This document shows, piece after piece, positions 561-33,396 of a stretch of 34,539 nucleotides of DNA (within the stretch, counting starts at the first letter, position 1; each line of letters opens with the position of its first letter). The notes below the pieces were generated by a model that was not told where the DNA came from, searched no databases, and saw nothing but the letters and a program-made list of their open reading frames with translations. A program made the position numbers and the translations under genes. Source of the stretch: an uncultured Eubacterium sp. (GTDB lineage Bacteria; Bacillota; Clostridia; Lachnospirales; Lachnospiraceae). Where the stretch lies: assembly GCA_947090545.1 (NCBI GenBank), contig CAMUPC010000016.1, positions 1-34,539 of the forward strand, in the 5' to 3' direction.

Positions 561-2420
561 ATGATCCATAGAAAAAGATTTAAAATCAGTACCAATAAAA
601 AAGAATATCTGCTCGCCGCTTTTTTTGCCTTGCTGTATCTTACCTTATCGGCAGGCACTTTAAAGGCAGCTACATCTGCCGCAGAAGCATCCGCACCGCA
701 AGGGCCGCAGTACAGTGAGGACGGCAGCCAGATCATATACACCAATCTCTTTTTTGGAAGCTACCCGCAGTCCGAGGTGACTGGAGCTGACCTGACGCCT
801 GCGATTCAGGATGCGGCATATGACAGTTATGGAGACGCGTGGGTGGATGGTGTTAAGTACCGCCGTGTCCGCAAGGAAGATGCCAATCAGAAGGAGCAGT
901 TTGGAGACAGCGAATACCGGTATTTTAAATGGGAGCGGATTCGGTGGCGTGTGCTTGCCAATGATGGAAATACGTTGTATGTCCTGGCGGATACGGGGCT
1001 TGACTGCAAAAGCTATCATGAGATGGGCGCGGCAGTTGCCTGGGAGGACAGTTCTCTGCGCAAATGGCTGAATGGTGCTTTTTATCGCACTGCTTTTTCT
1101 GACAGTGAGCGTGCGGCGATTGTGCAGCAGACGGTGGACAATCCTGCTTATGCGGCGCAGGGGACAGACAGCAGTACGCAGGATTTTATTTATGTACCGT
1201 CGATGGAGGAGATGGCGGGACGCAATTATGGGTTTCCTGCTGTTCAAAATCCATCTCCGTGCCGACAGATTCCGGCGAGTGCGTATGCGTATGCAATGGG
1301 GGCGCGCCTGGGCGAAGAGGATGGAACCGGGGAGCAGTTTTGCTGGTGGTGGCTGCGCAGCCCGGCTTCTGAGGAAGCGAATCCGTTTCGTTATGCGGCG
1401 CTGATGGGCAGTTCTGGGGCTTTTACGATGTATGGGCTTGTGGAAAATAAATACCGTGCTGTCGTTCCGGTGCTGCATATCCGCCTGGATTCTGGTGTGT
1501 GGACACGGGCGGATGATGCGTCGAGCGGTTCCGGCGGCGGGGAGTCTGCCGCAGAGCCTTTGGCTGTCAGCGCCCCGCATATGCAGCGCAGCCAGAATGT
1601 TGCAGCGTTTGACGTACAGGCGAGCGGTGGGCTTACAGACGAATACGAGTACCAGTGGTATTATGCCCCTTCCGATACAGGCAGCGGGCACCCGCTCAGC
1701 GAGTCTGATTACCAGTCGATCGTCTGGCAGGGGAAAGCGCTGTATATTGACCTGAAAGCGGACGACGTACCCGACGGGCTGTATTTATATTGTGCGGTCA
1801 GTGACGGGCGGTCTACGGTGGAAAGCAGCCGTGTCTGGTTTTCCAAAAAGAAAAAAAGCCAGACGATTACGTACAATAAGGGCAGTATTCAAAACGGGCA
1901 GATCGCTTACGGCGAAGCTTTTTCCTTAAAGGCAAAAAGCAATGGCGCGGCGTCTGCGATTTCTTATCAAAGCAGCAATCCGAAGATTTTGTCCGTCAGT
2001 GCATCCGGCAGGCTGAAAGCAAAAAACTACGGCAAGGCGTCTATTACGATCACAGCTTCGGATTCGCCGACCGATGAATACGGCAAAACGACCAAAAAGA
2101 TCACCCTGGCTGTCGTCCCAAAACAGGTGCAGGTAGCAAAGATCGTGCGTACAAGAAACAGCCAGGGCAGGCTGGAAAGCGTCTATGTCGAGTGGAAAAA
2201 GGACAAGACTATCGACGGATGCCAGTATAATATCGCCTACAACAAAAACTATACGAACAGCACCAACGGAGAAAAGGAAGGCACAGACAATTTCGTGCGC
2301 TTGAAATACTTGGACGTCAGCAAGGAAAAGCTGTATATTCGGGTGCGCACGTATAAAAAGGTTGGCAAAAAGACGTACTATGGAGCATGGAGCAAGAGCT
2401 ATATGCTGGCGATTACGTAA
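561..2420 (+). CDS. secreted DUF6273 protein with Ig-like, BIG2 and Fn3-like domains
   Basis: The 619-residue product is predicted to be exported. A lysine-rich start is followed by a hydrophobic stretch (about 13-31, LLAAFFALLYLTLSAGTL) and a likely cleavage near KAATSA. Residues about 58-310 fit the DUF6273 family: FFGSYPQSEV near the start, IRWRVLA, SSLRKWLNGAFY, and WWWLRSP followed by the closing VVPVLHIRL. An Ig-like segment follows (about 335-425), then a BIG2-type domain (about 428-515, SNPKILSVSASGRLKAK) and an Fn3-like end (about 520-619, YIRVRTYKKVGKKTYYGAWS). AGGAG at 546-550 sits about 10 bases before the ATG, supporting this start. It opens the plus-strand gene run, directly before the phosphatase/FHA/kinase genes, and no cell-wall anchor is visible. 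The function of DUF6273 is not known to me, so the role is left open. Confidence 0.85.
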   Translation: MIHRKRFKISTNKKEYLLAAFFALLYLTLSAGTLKAATSAAEASAPQGPQYSEDGSQIIYTNLFFGSYPQSEVTGADLTPAIQDAAYDSYGDAWVDGVKYRRVRKEDANQKEQFGDSEYRYFKWERIRWRVLANDGNTLYVLADTGLDCKSYHEMGAAVAWEDSSLRKWLNGAFYRTAFSDSERAAIVQQTVDNPAYAAQGTDSSTQDFIYVPSMEEMAGRNYGFPAVQNPSPCRQIPASAYAYAMGARLGEEDGTGEQFCWWWLRSPASEEANPFRYAALMGSSGAFTMYGLVENKYRAVVPVLHIRLDSGVWTRADDASSGSGGGESAAEPLAVSAPHMQRSQNVAAFDVQASGGLTDEYEYQWYYAPSDTGSGHPLSESDYQSIVWQGKALYIDLKADDVPDGLYLYCAVSDGRSTVESSRVWFSKKKKSQTITYNKGSIQNGQIAYGEAFSLKAKSNGAASAISYQSSNPKILSVSASGRLKAKNYGKASITITASDSPTDEYGKTTKKITLAVVPKQVQVAKIVRTRNSQGRLESVYVEWKKDKTIDGCQYNIAYNKNYTNSTNGEKEGTDNFVRLKYLDVSKEKLYIRVRTYKKVGKKTYYGAWSKSYMLAIT

Positions 2421-2487
2421 CAAAAAACAGGATGGTGAAGCTTTTGTGTTAGGGCGAAGGAAAACAGACAGGAAAAAAGAAAACAAC

Positions 2488-3429
2488 ATGCAGCCGGATA
2501 TGCAGCTAGGTGCCTTGTGTGCCTTGCAGGACATACAGCCAAATATGCAGACGCCGCCGGATACAGATCTGGAAGTGATTACCGAACAGCTTACAGAGTC
2601 CAAAGTCGTGACACAAAAGCTTCCGAAAAATAAAAGCACGACAGGCACGTCCTTATCCGGCACCCATATGATACAGATCGGGACAGCAAGCATTATCGGC
2701 AGCCGCAGGTCGCAGCAGGACGCTGTGTTTGGCTATGCGTCCGGCGGGACGGCGCTTGGCATTGTCTGTGACGGCATGGGCGGGCTTGCCGGAGGAGAAA
2801 CGGCAAGCCGTATTGCGCTCCAAAGCCTTGCCGATGCGTGGTTTGCGCAGTTGGAAATCGAAATAGATGATATTCCGGGTTTTTTCCGCAGGCAAGCCGC
2901 CGAAGCGGACAGGAAAGTCTATGTGCAGGAGGATACAGCCGGCAGGAGGCTACAGGCGGGCACAACGATTGTAGCCGCGATTATCCAAAAAGGCGGGCTG
3001 TACTGGCTCTCAGTCGGTGACAGCAAGCTGTATTTTATCCGCGGAAAAGAAATTCTTTCCTTAAATGTCGAGCATAATTACAGGATGGAGTTAAACGCGC
3101 TGCTGCGCCAGGGCAGGCTGACCGCGCAGGAATACGCGGCGGAAGAATACCGGGCGGAAGCGCTGACCAGCTACCTGGGCATCGGGGATCTCTCCGTGAT
3201 GGACGTAAGCCCCAGGGCATATCCGCTTAGGGAAGGCGATACGATTCTGCTGGCAAGCGACGGGCTGTATCGAAGTCTGCACGAAGAAGAGATTCTTGCA
3301 ATCGTCCAAAAAAACAGCCATTCGGTGCAGCAGGCGGCACAGGCGCTGACTGCGGCGGTAAACGGCAGAAAAAAACAGGACAATACGTCTGTAGTAATGA
3401 TGCGTTATACGATGGAGAAGCGAAGATGA
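2488..3429 (+). CDS. PP2C-family serine/threonine protein phosphatase (first copy)
   Basis: Cytoplasmic phosphatase of 313 residues, expected to remove phosphate from Ser/Thr residues, probably opposing the kinase two genes downstream. PP2C landmarks are in order: RSQQDAV, CDGMGG (metal-binding Asp95), GTT, GDSKLY (Asp178), ASDGLY (Asp258) and QDNTSV (Asp298). The usual Asn before Glu/Asp in the first motif is Gln here. The reading frame is open back to 2362 inside the previous gene. I chose the ATG at 2488 because a purine-rich GGAAAAAAG precedes it and earlier starts overlap the upstream gene; the site is weak, so the start is uncertain. About 60 residues of unrecognised, Gln/Thr-rich sequence come before the catalytic core, which starts near MIQIGTASI. 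It overlaps the FHA gene by four bases (ATGA), suggesting translational coupling. Confidence 0.9.
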   Translation: MQPDMQLGALCALQDIQPNMQTPPDTDLEVITEQLTESKVVTQKLPKNKSTTGTSLSGTHMIQIGTASIIGSRRSQQDAVFGYASGGTALGIVCDGMGGLAGGETASRIALQSLADAWFAQLEIEIDDIPGFFRRQAAEADRKVYVQEDTAGRRLQAGTTIVAAIIQKGGLYWLSVGDSKLYFIRGKEILSLNVEHNYRMELNALLRQGRLTAQEYAAEEYRAEALTSYLGIGDLSVMDVSPRAYPLREGDTILLASDGLYRSLHEEEILAIVQKNSHSVQQAAQALTAAVNGRKKQDNTSVVMMRYTMEKRR

Positions 3430-4070
3430 TATTAAAAAGATGTGACAAGGGACACTATTATGACGGCGAGATCTATCAGGAATGCCCGGAATGCAGCGGG
3501 AAGGCACAAAATGCCCAGGCGTTTGGCATGGAGGATACTGATTATGGAGACGAAGATTCTGTGACGGTCGCCCTGCCGCGCTCGCATGGACAAAGCAGTG
3601 CAAAAAACCAGGCACGCTTGGATGCATCGGAGGAGGAAAATGTAACAGTCGCCCTGCCGCATTCACATGGACAGCGCAAGCCCCGCAAACGTACTTTTAA
3701 GCCGGTGGTAGGCTGGCTTGTCTGTATCCAGGGAAAGGATTTCGGCAGCAGCTTTACGTTGCAGCTCGGCAAAAACTATATCGGCAGGTCTGTGCATATG
3801 GACGTGATGTTGCAGGGAGATGAAAGCATTGCCATGGAAAAACATGCGGCTGTGTATTATGTGCCGAAGTACCGCAGGTTTGCCGCAGAACCGGGGACGG
3901 CAGGAAAGCGGGTGTTTGTCAACAAAGAACAGATCCTGCGCCCGGTCTGGATCAAACAGCATGATAGGATAACGCTTGGAAATACAAGCCTGATGTTTTT
4001 TCCGTGCTGCGGAGAACATTTTAGCTGGGAAGAGCTGTTAAGAAAGTACATGGACAGCAGACGGCAATAA
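3426..4070 (+). CDS. zinc-ribbon and FHA-domain protein
   Basis: Cytoplasmic 214-residue protein likely to read phosphothreonine. The N-terminus has Cys6, His10, Cys20 and Cys23 in a spacing suited to one zinc ion. Residues about 95-192 form an FHA domain: LGKNYIGRS, where Gly120-Arg121-Ser122 match the conserved phosphate-binding start, then EKHAAV with His140, and ITLGNTSLMF. The Asn expected near the recognition loop may be Asn166 in VNKEQ. The linker carries two near-identical motifs, SVTVALPRSHGQ (45-56) and NVTVALPHSHGQ (72-83), each with a Thr in an acidic context. The start overlaps the phosphatase stop (ATGA), and the PASTA kinase gene follows after about 20 bases. FHA proteins encoded beside Hanks kinases and PP2C phosphatases usually act in the same signalling path; the partner here is inferred. 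Confidence 0.88.
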   Translation: MILKRCDKGHYYDGEIYQECPECSGKAQNAQAFGMEDTDYGDEDSVTVALPRSHGQSSAKNQARLDASEEENVTVALPHSHGQRKPRKRTFKPVVGWLVCIQGKDFGSSFTLQLGKNYIGRSVHMDVMLQGDESIAMEKHAAVYYVPKYRRFAAEPGTAGKRVFVNKEQILRPVWIKQHDRITLGNTSLMFFPCCGEHFSWEELLRKYMDSRRQ

Positions 4071-4092
4071 GCAAATGACAGGGGGAGCGGAT

Positions 4093-6420
4093 ATGACAAG
4101 ATGTATGGGCTGCATGGCTGAGATGACAGAGCAGGAACGGATATGCAGGCATTGCGGATACCAAAAGGACACAGATGTAAAAGAGGCATATTATCTGCTG
4201 CCCGGTACCATTTTAAAAGAAAAATACCTGATCGGCAGGGTGCTGGGCTACGGCGGATTCGGCGTTACGTATATCGGATGGGACCAGGTTTTGCAGCGCA
4301 AGGTAGCGGTCAAGGAATACCTTCCCAGCGATTTTGCGACCAGAAGCTACGGCTCCAGGCGGGTCACCGTATTTTCCGGCGAAGCGGCAGAGCAGTTTCA
4401 GGCGGGGCTTCACAGCTTTTTATTTGAAGCGAGGCGCCTGGCAAAGTTTAACGCGGTTGCGGAAACCGTCGATATTTACGACTGCTTTGAAGAAAACGGC
4501 AGCGGCTATATCGTGATGGAATACTTAGACGGCGCAACCGTCAAGGAAGTGCTGCGCAAAAGAAAACGCATCTCGGTCGAACAGGCACGCGCCATCGCAC
4601 TGTCTGTCCTGCGGGGCTTATCCGCTGTCCATAAAGAATCGATTATCCACCGTGATATCGCGCCGGACAATATTTTTATTACAAAAACAGGCAGGATCAA
4701 GATCTTAGATTTCGGCGCCGCCAGATACGCAACGGCAGTGCAGTCCAAGAGCCTTTCCGTTATTTTAAAGCCTGGCTTTGCGCCGGAAGAGCAGTACCGC
4801 AGCCGCGGCGAGCAGGGCCCGTGGACGGACATCTACGCACTTGGCGCGACGATCTACTGTATGATTACCGGAAAGCGCCCGGAAGAATCGATCCAGCGCC
4901 TTGCCGATGACCATGTAAAACCGCCTTCCCAGCTAGGCATTACGATCGACCCCAATATCGAAAACGCCATTATGAACAGCTTAAACGTCCGCAAAGAATA
5001 CCGTATCCAGGACGCCGACAGCTTTTACCGCGCCCTGTGCGGCAAAGAAGAGGTCGAGCGCATTGTAGAAAAAACAGACGCCAAAATCAACTGGAAGCTG
5101 CCCCTTTGGATGAAAGGCGCCGCCGTCTTTGCCGGCATCCTTGTATGCATCTGCGTTGGGCTGTTTGCCACCGGAAATCTGGGATTTACAAAAAAAGAAA
5201 TTACAAGCGCTGACGGCATTACAGCGCTGAGCGGGACACAGCGGTATGTGCCGAATGTCTCCGGCATGAGCTATGAAGAAGCTCAAGCCATAGTAAAAGA
5301 AAAAAATCTGAACCTGGTGATCAGCGGCATGAACTACAGTGAGAGCATTGCCAAAAATAAAATATTAAGCCAGAATCCGAAAGACGGCTCGATCGCAGAC
5401 GCAGAAGCAACGATCCAGGTCATTATGAGCGGCGGCAAAGAAGAAGTGATGATGCCGGACTTATCCGGCATGACCGCAGAGGAAGCAAAGCAGCTTATTA
5501 CAGGGCAAAACCTGCTGCTTTCTGAAAATGGCGTCAGCGAAGAGTACAGCGACGTCGTGGAAAAAGGCAGGGTCATTACACAAAGTATCCCTGCGGAAGA
5601 GCGCATTGCTGTCCAGACAGAGATCACATTATCGGTATCGCTGGGAAGCCTGAATGAAGAAACAGCGATTTTACAGGTGCCGGATGTTACAGGCATGACA
5701 AAAGAAAAAGCGGTGAAGCAGCTTCAAAAGCTCAAGGAGCAGGAAGGCTTTACCTATGTGCTTGGTGAAGTAAAAAATAAATACAGTACTGATGTGGAAA
5801 AAGGAAAAATTATCAGCCAGAAGCCAAAAGCAGGGCAGATGGTGCGCACAAATGAGCCAATCTGTATCGTGGTCAGCAAAGGGCCGGAAATGGTGCAGAT
5901 CCCAGAACTTGTCTATCTGACCAAAGACCAGGCGGTTGCGAAGCTGGAAAAGGCTGGGCTTACGGCGGAGATTAAGACGGAATACAGCGAGAAGGCGGCA
6001 GCAGGGCTTGTGACAGCGCAGAGTGCCAAGACAGGGTCGAAGGCGGCAAAAGGAAGCGTTGTTACGGTGACGGTCAGCCTGGGGAAAGCGCCGGTGCAGC
6101 AGAGCAGTGGGAATGCTGGGAACGGCGGAAGTGCTGGAAATAATGGAAGTACTGGGAATAGTGGAAGCAGCGGAGCGAGTGGATCGTCAGGTGGCAGTGG
6201 CGGAAGCAGCGGGAATGCCGGAAGCGGCGGAGCGTCGGGCGGAAGTGCTGGAAATGGCGGCGGACAGCCGTCTGGCGGGAATGCTGGGAATAGTGGAAGT
6301 GCTGGAAATAGCGGACAATCGCAGCCGGGTAGTGCTGGGAGCAGCGGGAATGCTGGGAACGGCGGCTCGGATGGGAATAAGGCGATTATGCCGGATGGCG
6401 GGAGTTTTGTTGTGGAATAG
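4093..6420 (+). CDS. membrane Hanks-type Ser/Thr kinase with zinc ribbon and four PASTA domains
   Basis: A 775-residue PrkC/PknB-like kinase. Residues 4-21 hold CxxC...CxxC (CMGC, CRHC), a zinc ribbon. The kinase domain spans about 45-320: glycine loop GYGGFG (52-57), Lys74 in VAVKEY, catalytic HRDIAPDN (Asp188, Asn193), DFG at 207-209 and APEEQY. Ala190 stands where Ser/Thr kinases normally have Lys. One membrane helix (about 338-360) is followed by four PASTA repeats (VPNVSGMS, MPDLSGMT, VPDVTGMT, IPELVYLT) that should face the wall. An unusual Gly/Ser/Asn-rich tail of about 100 residues follows and ends MPDGGSFVVE. The start at 4093 is chosen over 4075 because GGGGGAG lies just upstream of 4093. 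PASTA domains in this family bind muropeptides or wall precursors. It sits between the FHA gene and the giant LRR genes, so it may control either. Confidence 0.92.
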   Translation: MTRCMGCMAEMTEQERICRHCGYQKDTDVKEAYYLLPGTILKEKYLIGRVLGYGGFGVTYIGWDQVLQRKVAVKEYLPSDFATRSYGSRRVTVFSGEAAEQFQAGLHSFLFEARRLAKFNAVAETVDIYDCFEENGSGYIVMEYLDGATVKEVLRKRKRISVEQARAIALSVLRGLSAVHKESIIHRDIAPDNIFITKTGRIKILDFGAARYATAVQSKSLSVILKPGFAPEEQYRSRGEQGPWTDIYALGATIYCMITGKRPEESIQRLADDHVKPPSQLGITIDPNIENAIMNSLNVRKEYRIQDADSFYRALCGKEEVERIVEKTDAKINWKLPLWMKGAAVFAGILVCICVGLFATGNLGFTKKEITSADGITALSGTQRYVPNVSGMSYEEAQAIVKEKNLNLVISGMNYSESIAKNKILSQNPKDGSIADAEATIQVIMSGGKEEVMMPDLSGMTAEEAKQLITGQNLLLSENGVSEEYSDVVEKGRVITQSIPAEERIAVQTEITLSVSLGSLNEETAILQVPDVTGMTKEKAVKQLQKLKEQEGFTYVLGEVKNKYSTDVEKGKIISQKPKAGQMVRTNEPICIVVSKGPEMVQIPELVYLTKDQAVAKLEKAGLTAEIKTEYSEKAAAGLVTAQSAKTGSKAAKGSVVTVTVSLGKAPVQQSSGNAGNGGSAGNNGSTGNSGSSGASGSSGGSGGSSGNAGSGGASGGSAGNGGGQPSGGNAGNSGSAGNSGQSQPGSAGSSGNAGNGGSDGNKAIMPDGGSFVVE

Positions 6421-6446: not shown

Positions 6447-9400
6447 ATGAACAGAATTGTGAAACGAGGGGCGGCGTTGGGGCTGAGCCTGATGCTGGGT
6501 GTGATTGGAAGCGTGGGAGTGGCTAACCATAGATCCTATAGTGCTGCGGTTGTTAAAGCTGCGTTTACGGAAAATGAGCAGAAAGCAGCCGCAGGCGTGG
6601 TGGATATTTTAGATTATGAGAGTAATACTTCTGCTGCGGAATTTGCAGTAAACGATATTGCGGGATTTGAAAAGATTGCGGAATTGGTAAACTCTGGTAA
6701 GGAAACGTTTACAGGTAAAACAATTACGTTGATGGCGGATTTGAAGTATGATAAATCGGTTGAAAATAACCATAACGTAATTGGAGATTATGATCATGAA
6801 TTTGATGGTATATTTGATGGCGGATTTCATACGATCAGTGGTATTCATCTGAATTCAGATTTAAGGTGTGTGGGACTGTTCGGGCGAACCGGATTGAATG
6901 GAAAGATTTCTAAAATTATTTTGGAGGATTCAAATATCATATCGCAAGGTTCTTCTACTTCGGATACATATTTCGCCGGAGGAATTGTAGGTGGTCCTTG
7001 TGAGGCAGTGGTAAGTGAATGTATTAGTGAAAAAAACGTTGAAGTTACGGGAGGGAGAAATACAGATACAGGTGGAATTGTAGGGGATATGTATGCAAAT
7101 ATATCCAAATGCATAAATCTTTCTTTAGTAAAAGGAATGGGTTGTTCTGGTGGAATTGCTGGATGTATTAATTCTGATGGAAAAATAAAAGAATGCATAA
7201 ATTATGGAATGATATATAGTAATAATGATACTATGGGGGTTAGGATTGGAGGAATATGCGGTTTGTCAAACGGAGATACGGTTGAATGCTGCAATATGGG
7301 AGATGTATTAGCAGAAAATAAAGTATTAAGTACACCATGTGGCATTGGAGGGATTGCTGGTACCTCTGAAAAAGTTATAAATTGCTATAACACAGGACAA
7401 ATTATTGGAGCAGATCGTTTGTATGCAGGAGGTATTGTGGGAACCAGTAATGGCTCAGATAGAATAATAAAGAACGGTTATTCAACGGGAGAGGTTAAAA
7501 ATGGTTATCCTGGTGCTATTACATCTGTTTGTTCGAGTCGTATATGGGAATTGACCAATTGTTATTGGCTTACGGGAACAGCTCCTGACGGAGTATGTGA
7601 AACCGGACGTGGTGCATGGGCATCGGATGGAATTCAAGATACTTCTTCCGTTTTTGAATACAGTCGTGAGCAGATGGCATCTCAGGATTTTGTAAATGAA
7701 TTAAATGAAAATTGTAAAAACATGGGCTATGATGAAGTATGGGAGCCGGATGACAAGGGGATTAACTACGGCTATCCGGTTTTAAAAAATGTTCCATATA
7801 CGGTCGAGGAATTAACAAATTTTAATTTTAATGGTTTTGAGTGTAAAATTATGGATGGGGGTACAATTGGAATCCTAAAGTATCATGAGGATGGTTCCAA
7901 TGTGGCATTAGTGGTGCCTGCGGAAATAGATGGAAGAAGTGTGACAAATATACTTGAAGGCGCTTTTGCAGATTGTACAGGTTTAACAGAAATTACCATC
8001 CCGGATAGTGTGACGGAGATAGGCACAGGTGCATTTCAGGGATGTACAGGCTTGAAAGAGATTCTCATTCCACAAGAGTTAACAACAATAGGCAATTCTG
8101 TATTTTCTGGATGTACAGGCTTGACAAAAATTACAATTCCAGACAGTGTCACAGCCATAGGAAATTCAGCTTTTGCTCAATGCAGCAGCCTGAAAGAAAT
8201 AAGCATTCCAAATAGTGTAACAACCATAGAACAAGATGCTTTTAGCGGATGCAGCAGCCTTACAGACGTCTATTATGATGGAACAAAAAAACAGTGGAAC
8301 GAGGTTCAAATTGCATCAGGCAGCGGGCTGGAAGATGAAAGAATTACAATCCATTTCAATAAAGAAGATGAAACAGAAAATATTTATGAATGCAGGATAT
8401 TAGAGGATGATACAATTGAAATCGTAAAATATAACGGTTCCGATTCAATTTTACATATCCCTGAACAAATAGAGGAACGACGTGTTACAAGGATTGGAGA
8501 AGCAGCATTTTCAGGATGCACGAGCCTGACAGAAGCGGTGGTTCCATCTGGTGTCACAAGCATTGGCGGGTCAGCATTTTCGGGCTGTACCAATCTGGTG
8601 AAAATCGATCTTCCAGATGGAATTACGGATATCGAAGGAAATGCCTTTTTGAACTGTACCGGGCTGAAAGAGGTTAAAATTCCAGGCAGCATAGACCGCA
8701 TTCATGACAGCACTTTCGCCGGGTGTACAGGTTTGGCCAAACTGTGTATTCCATCCAATATAACAGATGTCAGTATGAATGCTTTCTCGGGTTGTTCCGG
8801 CTTGACGGAGGTTGAGATTCAAAATGGTGTCATCAATATAGAAGATGGGGCTTTTTCATTCTGTACGGCGTTAAGGGAAATACATATTCCGGTTAGTGTG
8901 GACAGTATAGGAGAGGGAGCTTTTGAAGCCTGCGACAGTTTGGAGGATGCCTATTATTCGGGCACGAAAGGACAGTGGGGCAAAATAAAAATCGATGCAG
9001 CCGGGAATGAAAAGCTTCTGTCTGCAAACATCCACTTTAAAGACAGCCCAATCGTGCTCCCGGAAGAACCAGCCCAGCCAGAAGTCCGTGACCCAAAACA
9101 GGAGCTGGACAGCCTAAAATCCAACGGCTCCTTCCAGCTTGGCGAGTTTACGCACTACCTGACCGAAGAGCAAATCGGCATTATGGAAAACTACCTCTAC
9201 ACCTGGCTCGCACAAGTCAATTACGCCTACCAGTATTCCGGCAGCAGCGCGCTCAAAGAGCTGGTCATGAAAAAAGCAGGCATTGACCCGGATGGTGATT
9301 TTGCATCCGGCATGGAGCAGGCGATTACCCATATTTCGGTTACTACGCCTTACGGCACAAAAACCTTGGAAATCACGATGGGCATTGGAAAGCCGGACAG

Positions 9401-11171: not shown

Positions 11172-11367
11172 TGATTTTTAAGAAAAAAGTGTTTTGGCAG
11201 CAGTGATTGTATTGTGTATGGTGGCGGGCTTGATAGAATATCCGAAAAGCATACACCAGGCAACGGATGCGGTTTCCGGGAATTTTCAGTATGAGCCGCT
11301 TACGGATGGAACATATCGGATGGCGTGTAGCGTTGTTGTGGAACCGTGGTTTTTTGTATTTGCATAG
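11171..11367 (+). pseudogene. truncated, frameshifted 5' remnant of a BspA-like LRR gene (copy 1)
   Basis: The stop of the preceding gene overlaps an ATG (TGATG). That frame reads MIFKKKVF and stops after 11 codons. A one-base shift at the T run near 11192-11195 opens a frame encoding a signal peptide (LAAVIVLCMVAGLIEYP) and then NFQYEPLTDGTYRM. This matches the opening strand of the family (FNYESLNDGTVKI in gene 2, YQVEELADATYKI in gene 4). Similarity then stops and the frame ends at a TAG at 11365. It looks like the dead start of another family member whose body was deleted. An identical copy lies at 15669-15865. Confidence 0.7.
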
Positions 11368-11400
11368 AGATTGTAGATATATCAAATACAGTCTCTATGC
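11362..11400. other. 14-bp-stem hairpin upstream of LRR gene 2
   Basis: GCATAGAGATTGTA (11362-11375) pairs with TACAGTCTCTATGC (11387-11400) through 14 pairs including one G-T, around an 11-base loop. A T run upstream and an A run downstream could extend the stem. Neither strand has a T tract directly after it, so it is not a classical intrinsic terminator. It sits 45 bases before the start codon of LRR gene 2 and could affect RNA processing, stability or translation. The same hairpin precedes gene 3. Confidence 0.6.
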
Positions 11401-11445
11401 TAAAAAATAGTTGAATATGTGTTTTGCTCGGATGGGAGAGGTATT

Positions 11446-15865: not shown

Positions 15866-15898
15866 AGATTGTAGATATATCAAATACAGTCTCTATGC
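15860..15898. other. 14-bp-stem hairpin upstream of LRR gene 3
   Basis: Exact copy of the hairpin at 11362-11400, again 45 bases before the start codon. No T tract follows on either strand. Its presence before two genes reflects the duplicated spacer, so conservation alone does not prove function. Confidence 0.6.
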
Positions 15899-20644: not shown

Positions 20645-20680
20645 GTTTTCAGCAGGCAGAATGCCGGGGAGGTTATGAAA

Positions 20681-25707: not shown

Positions 25708-28700
25708 ATGAAAAACAGACAGAGGAATCAAAGGCTGACAGCCTTGCTTTTGGCATGTTTGGTGCTGTTTGCACAGGCATTTTCTGTACAAGGCATGATA
25801 CAGTCAGATGCAAAAGCAAAAAGAAAAGCACCTGTAAAAATATCCAGGCAGGCACAGGGAATGACGGTAGCATATCATTCCCAGGAGGATATCCGTAACT
25901 ATGTGAAGAAAAACGGAGCCACACTTTCAGATCCGCTGGAATTTGCCAAAAATCCAGTAACAAATATTCCGTACGATCCGGGAAGCCTGGCAGCGGGTAC
26001 GCAGCAGTCAGCATTAAATATGCTTAAGCAGATGCGGTATATTGCAGGCATCTCTGACCAGGTGGAGTTGTCAGACAGCTATTGTAGGTATGCACAGGCA
26101 GGCGCATTTTTAAATTATGTCAATAATCGTCTGACACATACGCCGCAAAAGCCGTCTGGTATGGATGAAGCATTATATCAGGAAGGATATACAGGAGCAG
26201 GAAGATCAAATATTGCACGGGCATCATGGAGCGGGCGCAGCCTGAACGAGACGATCGTATTGTCGTGGATGGAGGATGGAGATGCATCTAATATTAGCAG
26301 AGTGGGACACCGCAGATGGATGTTAAATCCGAGAATGGGAAAAACCGGATTTGGTGCGGTAAGCGGTTCTTATGGCACTTACAGCAGCGTATATGCATTT
26401 GATACAAGCAATGCATCCGCTTCTGAAATGGGTGTTGCATGGCCTGCACAGAATATGCCGACAGAATATTTTAACACAGATTTTCCATGGAGCATCAGTA
26501 TGGGAAGTGAGCTGGACCAAAGCAAGGTGAAAGTGAAGCTGACCAGAAAATCAGACAACCAGGAATGGAGGTTTTCAGCAGATTCCTCAGATGGGGATTT
26601 TTATGTAAATAATGACGGATATGGGCAGAAAGGATGTATTATTTTTCGCCCGCCGCTGAAAGACATAAAAGCATATAGGGATGGGGACAGTTATGAGGTG
26701 GAGATTACAGGCACTGCGCAGCCAGTCTCTTATACAGTGAGTTTTTTTGATCTGGAAGAACAAAAACCGGTGGAGTTAGACCGTATTACGGCACGATATC
26801 AGGGGGCGCCGGTTGCGGAAGGCGCTCAGGTTAAGAGGTCTGATATTGTTGTGACAGGCATTTATACAAACGGCAGTGAAAAGCAGATTACAGATTTTAC
26901 AATTCAGCCTTATACGATCAAAGCCGGAAGCAATACGATTACGATTCAGTATCAGGGAAAAACCGCTGCCATCACAGTGACCGGAATTGCCACGGTCAAA
27001 AAGGTTACGGTACATTTTGACGCAGCAGGCGGTACGGCAGTTTCTGATCGTAGTGTGGATAAAGGTTCGGTATTAACGCCAATTCCTGTTACAGCGCGAA
27101 AAGGATACATTTTTGAAGGCTGGTATACGGCAGCGGAGGGCGGTACAAAGCTGGAGGCAACGACCGTTATCGAGCAGGACATCACGTATTATGCACATTG
27201 GAAAGCGGTAAAATTAAGCCATATCCAGGCGGAAACGGAAATTGTCCGCCTGATTGAAGGAGTTGCATATGAATATGAACCGGATGATTTTCGTGTTACG
27301 GCAATCTATACAGACGGGAGCTGGCGCATGGTTACCGATTATACGATCGATGAACATACGATTACGGCAGGAGAGAACACACTGACGATCCGTTATGGCG
27401 GAAAATCAGCAGAAGTAAAAGTCAATGCGGTATCGGTAAAGAGCTTTTCCGCAATGTATATGGGAGGCCCCAAAGCGGAAGGGACAACACAGCTTGGAGA
27501 GTATGATATACGGCTGTATGTATCTCTTTCAGACGGAGATACGCTTACTATCAAACATCCAGAAGATTATCAGATAGACCCGTTTGTGATTCAGCCAGGA
27601 GAAAACACCTTGACGGTAAGATTTGGCGGAAAGTCCCGGACAATCACAGTTACTGGGTATCGTAATACAAGTGCGGTAACATTGACTGGCATTACCGCGC
27701 AATATACAGGCGGCAGTATTGCAGCAGGAGATAAGCTTGACAAGGCAAAACTGAAAGTAACAGCGTTATATTCAGACGGAAGCAGCCAGGAGGTCTATGA
27801 TTATACTGTCTCTGACGATGTGATTCGGGAAGGGGAGAATACTATTACCGTCACTTATCAGGGGCAGACAGCAGTGTTTCAAGTAACAGGTACCAAGCCA
27901 AATGCACAAAAAGTTATAGTGCAGTTTCAGCCACAGGGAGGCAGTGCGGTATCCAGCCAGACAGTGGAAAAAGGCGCTGCGGTCGGTACACTGCCTGTGC
28001 CTGTGAAAAAAGGGTATCTTTTTGACGGCTGGTATACGCAGGCTGAAGGCGGTACGCTCGTTACACCACAGACAAAGGTCAATGACAATATTACCTATTA
28101 TGCGCATTGGACGAAGCAGTCAGATCCAGATGAACCAGACGGTCCAACTGATCCAGACAACCCCGGTCAGCCTAACCAGCCATCCACTCCAGACAACCCG
28201 GCAGCACCTAACCAGCCATCCACCCCAGACAATCCGTCCGCCCCGGATACTCCCGTCCCAGGACAGCCAGACAACCCATCCCGTCCATCCGTCCCAGATG
28301 ACAGCGTAACTGTCACATTTGACACGCAAGGCGGGGAATACACACCGTCCATCCGTGTGGATAAAAATGGAAAGCTGTCCTATATTCCAATGCCGCACAA
28401 ATCTGGCTGGATCTTCCAGGGGTGGTACACAGGCAGAAACGGCACAGGCAGTATGCTGACGCTTCATACGGAAGTTTGGCAGGACACCATCTATTATGCT
28501 TACTGGATATCGGCAGGCAGGACAATGACAGGGATCGAGGTTTCTGTGAACGGCACTGCATACGCTGGACAGCAGGTACAGCAGGCTTTGGCCGTAAAAG
28601 CAGTTTATTCTGACGGTACAAGCGAATGGATCTATGATTATGACGTTTCGCAGGCAATTTTAAATGCGGGAAGCAATACGCTTACGGTAGCCTGTTGCGG

Positions 28701-29418
28701 ATTTTCCAAAAGCATCCAGATCCAGGCGGCCGCAAGTACGCAAGGTACAGCGATCAGGGCGCTTACGGCATATTATGGCGGAGGCGAGATTCCGATCGGC
28801 ACGTATTCGGTGTTTGGCGGATTAATCGTAAGAGCAAGCTATTCCGATGGGACAGAGCGCGAAGTGTACGATTACGCGTTAAGCGGCAATACCATTCTGC
28901 CGGGGACAAATACGGTTATGGTTTATTATGAAGGCAAAACAGCGCGGTTTACCGTTACAGGCTATCAGCATCATACCGTCCGGCTGCATACAGACGGCGT
29001 GTCGGATGTCTGGGTGGCAAAGGACGCTGACCTAGGCACTGTTTTGAACAACTGTTATCCAAGACGAAGCGGCTATCAGTTTATGGGATGGTATCTGGAC
29101 GCGGGCTGTACGCAAAAAGCAGGCGCGGGCATGAAAGCGGCAGACGGTATGCACGTCTATGCAAAATGGCAGCAGCTTTACAATTGGAGCTTAAACAAGA
29201 CAAAAGCAACGATCCGGCAGGGCAAGACAGCGAAGTTGTCGGTAAAGGGACTGAAAAATACCGATATCACCTGGAAAACATCTAACAAACGGATTGCCCT
29301 TGTATCAGCAAAAGGCGTGATCAAGGCAAAGAAGCCCGGCACAGCGGTAATTACTGCGGTTACGCCGGATGGGTCAGTGATGACATGCACGGTAAAGGTT
29401 ATGAAAAAAGCCAAATAG
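25708..29418 (+). CDS. secreted CAP-domain protein with Ig-like and InlB_B repeats
   Basis: Exported 1236-residue protein; signal sequence about 1-30 (LTALLLACLVLFAQAFSVQG). Residues about 95-260 form a CAP (SCP/PR-1) domain, with NMLKQMRYIAG, LTHTP (142-146) and GHRRWMLNP (from 200), which supply the usual His residues. The rest alternates about six Ig-like (Big_3-type) units, each ending in a strand like NTITIQYQGKTAAITVTG, with four InlB_B-type units (GYIFEGWYTAAEGG, GYLFDGWYTQAEGG, GWIFQGWYTGRNG, GYQFMGWYLDAG). A Pro/Asp/Asn-rich hinge lies at about 806-865, and a BIG2-type domain (TWKTSNKRIALVSAKGVI) closes the protein. AAGGAGG precedes the ATG. No wall anchor is visible. CAP proteins have varied roles; the stalk layout suggests display of the CAP head away from the cell (inferred). 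Confidence 0.9.
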   Translation: MKNRQRNQRLTALLLACLVLFAQAFSVQGMIQSDAKAKRKAPVKISRQAQGMTVAYHSQEDIRNYVKKNGATLSDPLEFAKNPVTNIPYDPGSLAAGTQQSALNMLKQMRYIAGISDQVELSDSYCRYAQAGAFLNYVNNRLTHTPQKPSGMDEALYQEGYTGAGRSNIARASWSGRSLNETIVLSWMEDGDASNISRVGHRRWMLNPRMGKTGFGAVSGSYGTYSSVYAFDTSNASASEMGVAWPAQNMPTEYFNTDFPWSISMGSELDQSKVKVKLTRKSDNQEWRFSADSSDGDFYVNNDGYGQKGCIIFRPPLKDIKAYRDGDSYEVEITGTAQPVSYTVSFFDLEEQKPVELDRITARYQGAPVAEGAQVKRSDIVVTGIYTNGSEKQITDFTIQPYTIKAGSNTITIQYQGKTAAITVTGIATVKKVTVHFDAAGGTAVSDRSVDKGSVLTPIPVTARKGYIFEGWYTAAEGGTKLEATTVIEQDITYYAHWKAVKLSHIQAETEIVRLIEGVAYEYEPDDFRVTAIYTDGSWRMVTDYTIDEHTITAGENTLTIRYGGKSAEVKVNAVSVKSFSAMYMGGPKAEGTTQLGEYDIRLYVSLSDGDTLTIKHPEDYQIDPFVIQPGENTLTVRFGGKSRTITVTGYRNTSAVTLTGITAQYTGGSIAAGDKLDKAKLKVTALYSDGSSQEVYDYTVSDDVIREGENTITVTYQGQTAVFQVTGTKPNAQKVIVQFQPQGGSAVSSQTVEKGAAVGTLPVPVKKGYLFDGWYTQAEGGTLVTPQTKVNDNITYYAHWTKQSDPDEPDGPTDPDNPGQPNQPSTPDNPAAPNQPSTPDNPSAPDTPVPGQPDNPSRPSVPDDSVTVTFDTQGGEYTPSIRVDKNGKLSYIPMPHKSGWIFQGWYTGRNGTGSMLTLHTEVWQDTIYYAYWISAGRTMTGIEVSVNGTAYAGQQVQQALAVKAVYSDGTSEWIYDYDVSQAILNAGSNTLTVACCGFSKSIQIQAAASTQGTAIRALTAYYGGGEIPIGTYSVFGGLIVRASYSDGTEREVYDYALSGNTILPGTNTVMVYYEGKTARFTVTGYQHHTVRLHTDGVSDVWVAKDADLGTVLNNCYPRRSGYQFMGWYLDAGCTQKAGAGMKAADGMHVYAKWQQLYNWSLNKTKATIRQGKTAKLSVKGLKNTDITWKTSNKRIALVSAKGVIKAKKPGTAVITAVTPDGSVMTCTVKVMKKAK
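28171..28242 (+). repeat. two-copy 36-base tandem repeat in the proline-rich hinge
   Basis: The unit starting CCTAACCAGCCATCCAC begins at 28171 and again at 28207, a 36-base period encoding PNQPSTPDNPxA. It lies inside the CAP gene hinge and could change length by slippage. Confidence 0.7.
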
Positions 29419-29438
29419 AAATAGAAACGGAGGAAGCG

Positions 29439-30164
29439 ATGCTTTCATTTGATATCTTATCAAACCCCGGAGAACGGGAGTATAACGAAGATTATGCAGG
29501 AGTAAACAGGCGCGGGGACGCTTACTGCTTTGTCCTTGCCGACGGCCTTGGCGGGCATGGCGGCGGGGACGAGGCATCCCGTCTTGTGGCAGAGACGATT
29601 TTGCAGGATTTCGCCAGGTGCGGAACCGTGTCCGAAGCATATCTTGCAGGCTGCTTTGAGAAAAGCCAGCGGATCTTATTAGAAGAGCAGAAAAAGCAAA
29701 GGCGTATGACAGAGATGAAAACGACACTGACGGTTCTTCTGGCAGATGAAAGCCGTATCCAGTGGGGACATATCGGAGATTCCAGAATCTATTATTTTCA
29801 GGACAAAAAGCTAAAGCAGCGTACCTTAGACCACAGCGTCCCGCAGATGCTGGTGCTTGCCGGAAAGCTGAAAGAAAAGAACATCAGAGGGCACGCAGAC
29901 CGCAACCGCCTGCTTCGGGTTATGGGCATTGCGTGGGACGAGCCGCAGTACGAGATCGCGGCACCGATGCGGCGGATGGGAGGAGAAGCGTTTTTGCTCT
30001 GTACGGATGGGTTTTGGGAGTGGATACAGGAAAAGACGATGCAGCATTTGTTAAAAAAGGCTGGCAGCACGCAGGAGTGGCTTGCGATGATGGAGAAAGC
30101 GGTGGTCAGGCAGGGGATTGGCAAAGGGATGGATAATTATACGGCGGTTGGGGTATTTTTATAA
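29439..30164 (+). CDS. PP2C-family serine/threonine protein phosphatase (second copy)
   Basis: Cytoplasmic phosphatase of 241 residues, more compact than the first copy. Motifs in order: EREYNEDYAG (classical Asn-Glu-Asp), ADGLGGHGGG (Asp35), KTTLTVLL, GDSRIYYF (Asp114), CTDGFWEW (Asp190) and GMDNYTAV (Asp232), so all expected metal-binding acids are present. The frame is open back into the CAP gene, but the ATG at 29439 has GGAGGAAG just upstream and gives the normal family length. The gap to the CAP gene is 20 bases. It is a distinct PP2C, not a recent duplicate of the one at 2488-3429. A second phosphatase near the cohesin/sortase genes may act on another substrate or restore the same kinase path; this is inference. 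Confidence 0.92.
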   Translation: MLSFDILSNPGEREYNEDYAGVNRRGDAYCFVLADGLGGHGGGDEASRLVAETILQDFARCGTVSEAYLAGCFEKSQRILLEEQKKQRRMTEMKTTLTVLLADESRIQWGHIGDSRIYYFQDKKLKQRTLDHSVPQMLVLAGKLKEKNIRGHADRNRLLRVMGIAWDEPQYEIAAPMRRMGGEAFLLCTDGFWEWIQEKTMQHLLKKAGSTQEWLAMMEKAVVRQGIGKGMDNYTAVGVFL

Positions 30165-30226
30165 AGCGTTTTAAGCGTGGGCATTATTGCTTGGCTAAAG
30201 GATTTTCATTCAGAAAGGAGAAGCTT

Positions 30227-31120
30227 ATGAGCAGAAAAAACTTGATGTTGGCAGGACTATGCTGCGCCCTGCTAGTAACCTGCATCACACCAAAACAAAC
30301 AGTCTATGCAGCATCCCCGTCACTGTCCGCCTCTGCGGACACTGGCAGCGCCTCCAAAGGCGACTACGTCAATATTGACGTAGAGCTTGGAAACAATCCG
30401 TCCATCAGTACGCTTGGCGCAGCGCTTACCTACGACAGCAGCGTCTTAAAATATGACAGCAGTACATGGAACGGCGGTTTTTCCGGCAGCGATATGCAGA
30501 TGGCATCCGATACCGGCAGTGAGGTCAACTTGTCCGTTGTCTGCGACGACAGCTATGCGGCGGACGGCACAGTCGTCACCGTGCGCTTCCAGGCGGTTCA
30601 GGATACCGATTCGATTCCGGTTACACTGTCCCTGCGCGATATGGCAGACGCGGACTTGGCTGCGGTATCGGACTGCCAGGTTGCAAGCGCTGTATCTGCG
30701 CCGCAGACGGCATCCGTACCGGGACAGACAGCAAATTCGGAGCCAGACAGCGGGGAGGATGATTTCGTAGACCTGGATGATCCGCAGGAAGCATCCGATA
30801 TCGACATCGTGGACGAAGAAAGCGGAGCGGCACAACAGCCGTCAGCCGTACAGCAGCCGGATACAGACGGCGGGAACCGTTCATCAGGCGGAGTTTCCAG
30901 TTCATCGCAAACCGTTACAAACACACAGACGCAAACATACCAGCAGCAGGCAAAAACGCAGACGGTCGCGGCAAAGGCGGCGAATACATCCAGCCTGGAT
31001 AAAAATTACAAGACAGGCGCCGGAATCGGGACCGATATTTTTCTGATCGCCGCGACAGTATGCGGAATACTGGCGCTTGTATTTGCTATCAGGCGTCGTC
31101 GCAGTAAGGAGGAGCCATGA
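30227..31120 (+). CDS. cohesin-domain surface protein with C-terminal sorting-signal-like anchor
   Basis: A 297-residue exported protein; signal sequence about 1-29 (LAGLCCALLVTCIT to VYAAS). Residues about 32-150 fit a cohesin domain: GDYVNIDVELGNNPSISTLG, then LTYDSSVLKYD and VTVRFQA. An acidic, then Gln/Thr/Ser-rich stretch (about 160-255) would span the wall. The end has the three parts of a sortase signal: NYKTG (260-264), a hydrophobic segment (271-288) and RRRR (289-292). NYKTG resembles class B sortase motifs of the NPxTG type but has Tyr in place of Pro. The ATG at 30227 is chosen for AAAGGAG upstream; an earlier in-frame TTG at 30191 lacks one. It overlaps the next gene by four bases (ATGA). 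The class B sortase two genes downstream is the likely anchoring enzyme. If uncleaved, it would still be a membrane-anchored cohesin. Confidence 0.85.
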   Translation: MSRKNLMLAGLCCALLVTCITPKQTVYAASPSLSASADTGSASKGDYVNIDVELGNNPSISTLGAALTYDSSVLKYDSSTWNGGFSGSDMQMASDTGSEVNLSVVCDDSYAADGTVVTVRFQAVQDTDSIPVTLSLRDMADADLAAVSDCQVASAVSAPQTASVPGQTANSEPDSGEDDFVDLDDPQEASDIDIVDEESGAAQQPSAVQQPDTDGGNRSSGGVSSSSQTVTNTQTQTYQQQAKTQTVAAKAANTSSLDKNYKTGAGIGTDIFLIAATVCGILALVFAIRRRRSKEEP

Positions 31121-31848
31121 AAAAGACAGTGAAGCTTGCAGCGCTTGTACTCAGCCTGTGTACAGCGGCCAGCGGATTTTGCGTACGTGCCTATGCGGAT
31201 ACAGCAGCATGGGATATTGAAAACAGCCTGGATGTTTCCGAATGCAGGCAGGGTGATACGGTTACAATGTCGGTAAACTTAAAAGGCGCCAGTGCATCCG
31301 CGTCACAGGAAATCGCTTCCATGAGCGGGACACTGGAATACGATACAAGCCTGTTTACCGTAGAAAAAGCAGATATTCTTCCAGAAGAAGCAAAAAACGT
31401 GCAGGAATACTCGTTTGACCGTGCATCCGGTATTTTTAAAGTGCAGTATACATCGGACAGGACTGTAAAAGACGGCGATCTGCTGCTGCACATCAAGCTT
31501 CATACCGCAGCGGACGCATCTACCGGGAAAACGACGCTTTGCGTGACAGATATGCAGTGGAAGAGTACAAAGAGTGACAAAGAAACAGAAATCGAACATC
31601 ATGTCCCGGCAAAAATCACAATTGCTTCGGCAAAAGATGTTTCTGCCGGAGATGTAAACCAGGACGGAGAAGTCAATCTAATCGATGCAAAGCTTGTTAT
31701 GCAGTATTATAACGGTGCGATAGAACTGGATGCCCAACAGCAGAAAAATGCTGATACAAACGGCGATGGAAAAGTGAATCTTACAGATGCAAAGCGTATT
31801 ATGCAGTATTATAATGGGGAGATCGAGTCTTTAAGCCAGGAAGGTTGA
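31117..31848 (+). CDS. secreted cohesin-like and type I dockerin protein
   Basis: A 243-residue exported protein; signal sequence about 1-27 (LAALVLSLCTAASGFCVRAYA). Residues about 30-170 are cohesin-like: GDTVTMSVNLKGA, MSGTLEYDTSLFTVEKADI and GDLLLHIKLHT. Residues 178-236 form a complete dockerin with two calcium loops, DVNQDGEVNLID (179-190) and DTNGDGKVNLTD (213-224), each followed by AKxxMQYYNG. The two halves are almost symmetrical, a feature that in known dockerins permits binding in two orientations. Start and upstream stop overlap (ATGA), so it is probably made together with the anchored cohesin protein. With both a cohesin and a dockerin it could act as an adaptor or polymerising link. 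The binding partner is inferred, and no carbohydrate-active domain is present in this window. Confidence 0.88.
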   Translation: MKKTVKLAALVLSLCTAASGFCVRAYADTAAWDIENSLDVSECRQGDTVTMSVNLKGASASASQEIASMSGTLEYDTSLFTVEKADILPEEAKNVQEYSFDRASGIFKVQYTSDRTVKDGDLLLHIKLHTAADASTGKTTLCVTDMQWKSTKSDKETEIEHHVPAKITIASAKDVSAGDVNQDGEVNLIDAKLVMQYYNGAIELDAQQQKNADTNGDGKVNLTDAKRIMQYYNGEIESLSQEG

Positions 31849-31905
31849 TCCAGGTTAGGATCACACAGAACCAAAAGATCTATCCAGGAAAGAAGATGAA
31901 CCACG

Positions 31906-33396
31906 ATGTTAACATGGACAGCAGAAGAAAAAGCTCTAAAAAACATCCAAAAAATCATAGCCCGTGTCTGGCGCATGAATCATGCACAGCTTTCCACGTT
32001 TTGCAATAAGCTGCAAAAAAACAGCCACGAGCTGCTTCCAGGACAGCTCGGCAGCGCATTTCTCAAAGTTTTGCAGCAAACAGCGCAGAAAGAGCAGATA
32101 TCGGCAAAGGTATGGACAGAACTGATGCGGGATACGGAGCGCCTGTTAAATCTGGTACAAATGCAGTGCCGCCAGGAAGAACAGGCATGTCGTTTGCTGC
32201 TGTACAGGCTGGAAGCCCAGCAGGACAGGATATTTCAGACAGAGCTGGGCAGGGCATTTTTGCCCTTATTAAAAGAGAAATTAGGCATGATTCCGCCATC
32301 CCGGACACAGACAGCATCCATCCAGGAAAGGGCATCTAAGCACGAGCATAGGCAGAATACATCAGGGCTGCACACAGAGCTTCACCAGGAATTGGAAAAA
32401 GTCGCGGACTGGCTGATGAATGGCCCCGAGCAGGCGCCAGGAAAGAAAACAAAGAAAAACAGAAACAATCGTTCTGTCTGCCACAGCGCCGCCAAACGAT
32501 CCCCTGCTCTTATCTTTGCCTGTCTGTCCATATGCTTTATGGGAATCTGGCTGTACGGGCAGATCCAAAGAAACCAGAATCAATGGCAGTTGCAGCAGAT
32601 GAAAGTGGCATCATCCAAAGAGCCAGATCTGTTTTGGTCAGACAGTCCCACAGCAGACACAGATGCAGCCGCACGCAGGAAAGCCAGATCAAATATAGCG
32701 CCAGGAACAACCAGCAACGAAACAGGCGTGGCAGAAAATCATCCTCAGACAACAGACAAAACCAGCGCGGCTAAGAACATCCGTCAGACAAAAAGGAATG
32801 CCGCAGCCAGGCAGAAAAAGCTGCCGCAGTATGAGCAGATGTCAAAAGAATACCCGGACTTGTTTGGATGGCTGCTGATTCCAGACACACAGATCGACCT
32901 TCCGGTAATGCAGCCGCACAAGGAAAGTGATTTTTACCTTCACCACGATTTTCAGGGAGCAGCTTCGTCAGAGGGAGCACTGTTTGTAGATGCAAAAAAC
33001 AATCTCCTGCCGCCGGACTGCAACACGGTTGTTTACGGGCACAATATGAAAAACGGGCATATGTTCGGCACGCTGGATTTGTATCAAGATGCGGATTATT
33101 TTCAGGCGCATAAGGAGATTCATTTTGACACGATTTATGAAACAGGGATCTATGAAGCCGTTGCTGTAGTAAAGACAAGGATCTTGCAGGAGGAAGAGCC
33201 GGGATTTCGGTATTATCAGTTTTTTCAATCCAACGACCGCCAGTCCTTTCACGCATGTCAGGAGTTTGTAAAGCAAAACCAATTGTTTGATTCCGGCAGC
33301 TTTTTGCAGTATGGGGACCGGATTTTGATGCTGTCTACCTGCGAATATTCACAGGAAAACGGAAGGCTTGTCGTTGTTGCCAGGAAAATTGGCTAG
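31906..33396 (+). CDS. class B sortase with long cytoplasmic N-terminal region
   Basis: Transpeptidase that cuts sorting signals and links proteins to the wall. The C-terminal part (about 310-496) is a sortase B domain: LFGWLLIPDTQIDLPVMQ, VVYGHNM with catalytic His379, LSTCEYS with Cys479, and GRLVVVAR with the likely catalytic Arg487. One membrane helix at about 199-219 (ALIFACLSICFMGIWLYGQI) is followed by a polar, Lys/Gln/Thr-rich stalk. The roughly 195 residues before the helix are helical, Gln/Leu-rich and unlike anything I recognise. Ordinary class B sortases are roughly half this length (about 240 residues), with only a short N-terminus. The ATG at 31906 has AGGAAAG about 12 bases upstream, a modest site. 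It closes the plus-strand run, and the protein at 30227-31120 is its most obvious substrate. Confidence 0.9.
   Translation: MLTWTAEEKALKNIQKIIARVWRMNHAQLSTFCNKLQKNSHELLPGQLGSAFLKVLQQTAQKEQISAKVWTELMRDTERLLNLVQMQCRQEEQACRLLLYRLEAQQDRIFQTELGRAFLPLLKEKLGMIPPSRTQTASIQERASKHEHRQNTSGLHTELHQELEKVADWLMNGPEQAPGKKTKKNRNNRSVCHSAAKRSPALIFACLSICFMGIWLYGQIQRNQNQWQLQQMKVASSKEPDLFWSDSPTADTDAAARRKARSNIAPGTTSNETGVAENHPQTTDKTSAAKNIRQTKRNAAARQKKLPQYEQMSKEYPDLFGWLLIPDTQIDLPVMQPHKESDFYLHHDFQGAASSEGALFVDAKNNLLPPDCNTVVYGHNMKNGHMFGTLDLYQDADYFQAHKEIHFDTIYETGIYEAVAVVKTRILQEEEPGFRYYQFFQSNDRQSFHACQEFVKQNQLFDSGSFLQYGDRILMLSTCEYSQENGRLVVVARKIG

Follow-up and report, generated by a model that had tools for sequence, protein, structure and literature searches.

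Introduction

Type VII secretion systems (T7SSs) often have their substrates encoded beside the machinery, and many T7SS loci contain kinases, phosphatases and FHA proteins, for which control of secretion is raised as an open possibility in the part of a 2024 survey drawn on here (Garrett, Higginson and Palmer 2024, PMC11217815). The same part records that the phosphothreonine motifs of the EssC FHA domain are conserved in the T7SSe and T7SSj subtypes, and that the FHA domain of T7SSb EssC has no phosphothreonine site; EssC of S. aureus and Geobacillus lacks these motifs in the portion of PMC4925161 used. Here we describe a gene run of signalling, giant exported and scaffold proteins in a 34,539-nucleotide contig of an uncultured Eubacterium sp. 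(the window, meaning the whole stretch analysed, G000:C16:1-34539; its own genome, G000, comprises 4.42 Mb in 380 contigs). The window is probably the downstream half of a T7SSe/j-like locus under threonine phospho-control, equipped with a lineage-specific leucine-rich repeat (LRR) array and a minimal cohesin/sortase scaffold; we infer function throughout.

Results

A secretion locus upstream of the gene run in relatives

Positions 561-33396 of the window hold 13 successive open reading frames (ORFs), all on the plus strand. Scored against the curated cut-offs of Pfam and NCBIfam profiles, they encode one PASTA kinase, two PP2C phosphatases, one FHA protein, five exported giants, two cohesins, one dockerin and one class B sortase, which bears out the set of 13 genes listed by the initial annotation. 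The first gene carries a domain, DUF6273, that it had not named:

561-2420, plus strand: exported DUF6273/Big_2 protein

The initial annotation also held that no secretion machinery accompanies the signalling genes. That is incorrect for the genome: contig C10 carries T7SS genes, which in relatives are collinear with those of the window, so the apparent lack of machinery is an artefact of the contig edge. The end of G000:C10 encodes a second kinase, a DUF6382-FHA protein, a 67-amino-acid protein, a 1672-amino-acid ATPase, LytTR, a 218-amino-acid protein and YukD. The ATPase scores 1079 bits against TIGR03928, the Firmicutes EssC model (cut-off 778), and YukD (G000:C10:39417-39665) scores 37.7 bits against PF08817 (cut-off 27). 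The 67-amino-acid ORF (C10:32800-33003) has one hydrophobic segment and is likened to TseK, TsjK and TseH by hydropathy alone. A WXG100 protein scoring 31.4 bits against PF06013 (cut-off 27.3) is encoded in the related genome G003, and BLAST finds relatives within the loci of G001, G002, G005, G006, G007, G008 and G010. Judged by sequence, the C10-end genes together with the WXG100 genes of relatives are a type VII secretion locus.

Relatives place this locus directly before the window genes. Upstream of the orthologous run, G003 carries a kinase (in two frames), DUF6382-FHA, an FtsK-like ATPase (in pieces), LytTR pieces, a YukD-like protein, WXG100-like proteins and a protease-FHA protein. 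By sequence, the upstream block continues into DUF6273, PP2C-1, FHA, the PASTA kinase, the LRR giants, PP2C-2, the cohesin anchor, the adaptor and SrtB, and in G003, G010, G006, G007, G008, G001 and G005 the DUF6273 gene has PP2C-1 on one side and protease-FHA, or a small coiled-coil gene, on the other. A single contig holds the whole collinear order from the second kinase to the cohesin gene in G003, G010 and G007; in G006, G008, G001, G005 and G000 the run is interrupted by contig breaks. Because order and content recur in other genomes, the run is not a chance arrangement.

A complementary view comes from G004:C7 (95000-114999). Its left flank holds partners of five C10 proteins in order (67-85% identity), next to an SrtB orthologue (66.5%) and four ORFs whose partners (61-88%) neighbour the G006:C37 sortase. 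Between the flanks there is no gene of the T7SS, the LRR array or the cohesins, leaving an empty site in which the sortase alone is kept. The block between left flank and sortase therefore behaves as one insertion or deletion.

The edges of the window fall in a repeat:

237-520, no strand assigned: dispersed inverted repeat at the contig edge, with a further copy at 34446-34539

This repeat also occurs at the ends of contigs C10, C65 and C129 of G000, and it probably breaks assemblies of the genus. With copies at both window ends and at other contig ends, assembly most likely truncated the window on both sides, and the absence of neighbours therefore could not be judged from the window. The family is hundreds of bases long, with pieces 71-95% identical, and is found at contig ends and between genes in the genus, including G004:C7. 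Near the repeat at the contig end, 33555-34190 on the minus strand is a 211-amino-acid ORF with no Pfam or NCBIfam match. Two scans each for promoter-like sites (30 and 35 observed, 23.9 and 27.4 expected) and terminator-like sites (18 and 18 observed, 16.2 and 17.2 expected) were near shuffle expectation and uninformative.

A candidate phosphoacceptor motif and its possible readers

The signalling features of the window are:

2362-3429, plus strand: PP2C-1 phosphatase; PP2C_2 domain, metal-ligand Asp motifs conserved in 8 aligned sequences
3426-4070, plus strand: FHA protein with N-terminal Cys motif and non-canonical FHA domain (26.0 bits, cut-off 20.7)
3549-3578, plus strand: candidate phosphoacceptor motif 1, Thr47
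3630-3659, plus strand: candidate phosphoacceptor motif 2, Thr74
4075-6420, plus strand: membrane PASTA Ser/Thr kinase; Pkinase domain and 4 PASTA stretches, HRD and DFG motifs intact
29439-30164, plus strand: PP2C-2 phosphatase; PP2C_2 domain, catalytic motifs intact

The kinase scores 342 bits against NF033483, the Stk1/PrkC equivalog (cut-off 450), and the two PP2Cs score 142 and 152 bits against the Stp1-type equivalog (cut-off 230), all below threshold. The true start of PP2C-1 probably lies downstream of 2362; the PP2C-2 ORF opens at 29385, and the start falls at MLS in four of five orthologues. PP2C-2 is the next gene after the kinase in G010 and G005 and adjoins the cohesin gene in G000, G003, G006, G007 and G008; it thus seems to be a member of the signalling module, flanked by LRR genes that expanded on both sides.

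The catalytic motifs of the kinase and phosphatases are intact. An earlier reading of these genes as a phosphorylation writer, reader and erasers is doubtful for the window FHA protein as reader, since the canonical phosphothreonine-binding Ser is replaced. Window-type FHA proteins keep the GR and the H, with M, A or W at the Ser of SRxH (6/6 aligned), and DUF6382-FHA proteins have Gly at that position (8/8). SRxH is retained in EssC (all eight genus sequences; G003, in pieces, excluded) and in the eight protease-FHA proteins examined; distant EssC proteins vary, with SGEH, SKQH, SKKH or SRNH.

Upstream of the FHA domain, all 14 adaptor proteins carry the pattern [DE]x(1-3)[VYT]TVx[LM][PGS], hereafter TVxL: the six window-type FHA proteins (twice in each except that of G007, which has it once) and the eight DUF6382-FHA proteins (one each). 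It appears in none of 468 other ORFs longer than 100 amino acids (204,543 residues) from the fetched genome stretches and the window. Acidic residues before the Thr and a hydrophobic residue three positions after it fit substrates of PknB-type kinases, in the arrangement of GarA and OdhI. The Thr is a candidate phosphoacceptor. We also considered the letters ETTVL in EssC as the same motif and rejected them, as they are not conserved among orthologues. The second receptor kinase has a solute-binding-like ectodomain (SBP_bac_8) in six of seven orthologues.

An apparently recombinogenic array of LRR giants

Between the PASTA kinase and PP2C-2 lie five giant genes with these features:

6447-11171, plus strand: giant LRR protein 1; signal-like N-terminus, LRR_5, P0025 domain, Big_2, Flg_new, fn3-like
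9075-10169, plus strand: P0025 domain copy 1
11172-11418, plus strand: 247-bp spacer, copy 1, 100% identical to 15670-15916
11419-15669, plus strand: giant LRR protein 2; ATG likely at 11446
15670-15916, plus strand: 247-bp spacer, copy 2
15917-20644, plus strand: giant LRR protein 3
20675-25693, plus strand: giant LRR protein 4
13702-14790, 18524-19618 and 23687-24781: P0025 domain copies 2-4
25708-29418, plus strand: giant CAP/Big_3/Flg_new protein, 1236 amino acids

All four LRR giants (1416-1672 amino acids) carry LRR_5 and a hydrophobic Sec-type N-terminus. The LRR and CAP giants, whose surface location is putative, have signal-like hydrophobic N-termini and no later hydrophobic segment in a simple scan. 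The P0025 domain has no Pfam match in any of 20 members, and its profile found no clear relative among PDB sequences (one match, E 0.27).

The LRR genes share 79-94% DNA identity in their 3' parts and are more diverged in their 5' parts, those of LRR2 and LRR3 still being about 80% identical over 1.2 kb. LRR1 and LRR2 are 100% identical in 100-base bins across a 400-base stretch (9196-9595), and the gene run is interrupted by the two 247-bp spacers. The identical spacers and the 400-base tract suggest recent duplication and gene conversion, and the array looks recombinogenic; assembly error is another possible source of the identity tracts. Read by eye, the spacers hold an apparent broken LRR 5' end.

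A minimal cohesin, dockerin and sortase kit

The last three genes of the run are:

30191-31120, plus strand: cohesin wall anchor; ATG likely at 30227, cohesin 30332-30625, NYKTG at 31004 followed by a transmembrane segment and basic tail
31117-31848, plus strand: cohesin-dockerin adaptor; cohesin 31234-31605, type I dockerin 31645-31809
31906-33396, plus strand: class B sortase (SrtB); domain about 32875-33387, N-terminal region of about 195 amino acids before a single hydrophobic segment

Against Cohesin PF00963 (cut-off 24.1) the anchor scores 24.9 bits, just above threshold, and the adaptor 36.4; the adaptor also scores 55 bits against Dockerin_1 PF00404 (cut-off 22.9). In nine of ten anchor homologues the C-terminus consists of [NS]Y[KQ]TG followed by a hydrophobic segment and then basic residues; the remaining homologue is frame-disrupted. 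The sortase scores 45.4 bits against PF04203 (cut-off 26.6) and 139.3 bits against TIGR03064, under the cut-off of 153.75, and its best PDB matches are SrtB. His379, Cys479 and Arg487 are invariant in 13 of 13 sequences, and the N-terminal region is conserved within the genus. A second long-N-terminus class B sortase is paired with a CAP/Flg_new giant, a relative of the one at 25708-29418, at G000:C129 (L096) 297-3947, and the same pair occurs in G004:C38.

In the own genome, only two cohesins were found at E < 0.001, both in the window, and two dockerins: that of the adaptor and one on contig C65. The latter lies near the N-terminus of a 1760-amino-acid M60-type metallopeptidase (L095, 12166-17448). 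A DNA search of the genome for [NS]Y[KQ]TG, Pro variants not included, returned four matches versus two for a reversed-pattern control, and only the window's sits in a protein with the full signal; the match on C76 is a 119-residue frame with a short hydrophobic stretch, spurious by eye, and two lie in very short frames. Anchor, adaptor and M60 cargo form the simplest chain of predicted binding.

Distribution and alternative readings

The link between signalling and LRR genes drawn by the initial annotation is real and conserved when gene order around homologous kinases is compared: in all seven readable genomes an LRR giant comes next after the PASTA kinase, or next but one behind PP2C-2 (G010, G005), and in the eighth carrier, G001, the contig ends after the kinase. 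The PASTA kinase (at least 70% identity; in two frames in G003), PP2C-2 (at least 70%) and the P0025 domain share one set of 8 genomes out of the 13 of the genus. Chance would make two such sets coincide once in 1287, a figure that ignores relatedness. EssC (at least 74%) is found in nine genus genomes, the same eight plus G002.

Beyond the genus this pattern does not hold. P0025 matches 10 of 116 genomes searched, the two outside the genus being partial (G027, G041), and 5 of 397 family genomes, the own genome and four others. We rejected a family-wide link between LRR giants and T7SS, because the four other P0025 carriers have no EssC-like or other T7SS match in the fetched stretches. With P0025 outside the genus not near a T7SS in those stretches, the association is a lineage trait.

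The most serious rival holds that two neighbours are independent: a T7SS ending at the PASTA kinase and PP2C, and a separate LRR-cohesin-sortase display island, together by descent and with no shared regulation. It agrees with a T7SS-linked, phospho-controlled locus on the identity of every gene and differs on whether the modules cooperate, so that the odds given to the two need not sum to one; we regard it as a possibility of some substance, somewhat short of an even chance. It gains from LRR-cohesin-adaptor-SrtB cassettes that stand without a T7SS, complete in G012:C50 and partial in G002:C40 (LRR, cohesin and adaptor, with SrtB on another contig) and G003:C1:765-770 kb (LRR, cohesin and sortase, in partly broken frames). 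It gains too from T7SS loci with kinase and PP2C relatives that show no cohesin or sortase match in the fetched stretches (G002:C36, G015, G025, G070), and from G004, which retains SrtB with neither T7SS nor LRR/cohesin genes. Against it, PP2C-2 sits inside or beside the cohesin block in the five genomes named above, and P0025-type LRR giants occur within the genus only in the eight kinase-bearing genomes.

A free-standing wall-sensing switch of PASTA kinase, FHA protein and PP2C, governing surface display and not secretion, is improbable. It draws on the giant exported proteins that follow directly on the PASTA kinase and on the conserved N-terminal region of SrtB, which is probably cytoplasmic and could be a kinase target. 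T7SS genes, however, are collinear upstream in relatives, and it is in T7SS components that the canonical FHA domains, and some of the motifs, are found. The initial annotation had proposed a wall-sensing switch tied to surface display; the linkage is real, but display cassettes occur without kinase or T7SS, and display therefore does not require the switch, leaving such a tie possible but secondary. The kinase-PP2C-FHA trio fits best as the phospho-control component of a T7SS locus, a setting that had been mentioned and dismissed. That the LRR giants are themselves T7SS substrates is very hard to credit: they are encoded inside the T7SS locus, and substrates often lie near the machinery (in the part of PMC11217815 drawn on), but all four have the Sec-type N-terminus and no WXG or LXG domain match.

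Several further points weigh against the window as half of a phospho-controlled T7SS locus. Contigs C10 and C16 are not joined in G000, where the WXG100 and protease-FHA genes were not located among the matches listed; they should lie in the gap between the two. EssC and both kinases of G003 are split over several frames. No orthologue of the FHA gene was matched in G001 or G005, and the TVxL pattern was composed after the motif was seen. G007 has the T7SS, LRR, cohesin and adaptor genes without this SrtB, its sole match being a 38% relative elsewhere. Among the scanned window and C10 genes no LXG or RHS effector match was found, and the P0025-like domains of G323, G425, G041 and G027 have no T7SS match in the fetched stretches by BLAST against window and C10 proteins. 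The T7SS-free cassettes count on the same side.

Discussion

We propose that two membrane kinases sense the outside, the PASTA kinase responding to wall fragments and the other acting through its solute-binding-like ectodomain. Both would act on the Thr of the TVxL motifs that the two FHA adaptors carry. Once phosphorylated, this Thr would be bound by EssC and protease-FHA through their canonical FHA domains, which would switch secretion, and PP2C-1 and PP2C-2 would reset the phosphorylation. The LRR giants would exit by Sec, not by the T7SS, with neighbouring cells or host glycans as their probable binding targets. By way of NYKTG, SrtB would join the cohesin anchor to the wall, the adaptor dockerin would dock on the anchor, and the adaptor cohesin may be offered to the M60 peptidase, which has the one further dockerin found in the genome. 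The LRR array and the cohesin/sortase kit would together be a lineage-specific accessory of the T7SS locus.

A bolder form of this proposal is a further, as yet undescribed, contact-gated T7SS subtype, in which wall-sensing and solute-sensing receptor kinases write TVxL phospho-Thr, EssC and the membrane-protease FHA read it, two PP2Cs erase it and the gene-converting LRR array provides exchangeable target recognition. We hold this to be unlikely as it stands and offer it tentatively.

The locus supplies a concrete, conserved candidate phosphoacceptor motif together with canonical FHA partners, and the question of secretion control therefore becomes testable with purified domains. It is also an example of a T7SS locus with dedicated LRR giants, exported by Sec, and with a cohesin-dockerin-sortase kit of minimal size, and it illustrates that contig edges can conceal the true setting of a signalling cluster.

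Comparison with known systems

The PASTA kinase and phosphatases resemble Stk1/PrkC and Stp1 in domain plan and PP2C family, but fall below the NCBI equivalog cut-offs, include an N-terminal Cys motif and are sited in a T7SS locus. The scaffold genes recall cellulosome-type cohesin-dockerin systems in their type I dockerin, cohesin anchor and adjoining sortase, whereas only two cohesins and two dockerins were found in the genome and the other dockerin sits on an M60 peptidase; M60 enzymes with dockerins are known. The exported giants share LRR_5 repeats with BspA-type proteins, but here combine them with the P0025 domain in a tandem array within a T7SS locus.

Among secretion systems, T7SSb of S. 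aureus and B. subtilis shares YukD, WXG100 and an EssC that matches the Firmicutes model, but the phosphothreonine site of the EssC FHA domain is kept here and absent in T7SSb. EssA, EssB and EsaA had no match among the proteins scanned; the genome was not searched for them. Unlike T7SSe and T7SSj, no large Sec-exported immunoglobulin-domain protein with a C-terminal transmembrane segment (TseI/TsjI) was found among the C10 and window ORFs in a simple hydropathy scan, the C10-C16 gap being unseen in G000; for lack of a TseI-like protein in these ORFs, the system is not filed in either subtype. The locus also goes beyond both in its extra PASTA kinase, second PP2C, protease-FHA, LytTR, DUF6273 protein, LRR array and cohesin/dockerin/sortase genes. 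These are unmentioned in the part of the T7SSe/T7SSj survey drawn on, and the words leucine, sortase and lachnospir are absent from its main text (PMC11217815). Shared with T7SSe and T7SSj are an EssC-type ATPase with canonical FHA domain, WXG100, a YukD-like protein, a membrane Ser/Thr kinase, a PPM/PP2C phosphatase, and a DUF6382-FHA protein, with a candidate, by hydropathy only, for the short single-transmembrane protein; the system is a variant of the T7SSe/j kind.

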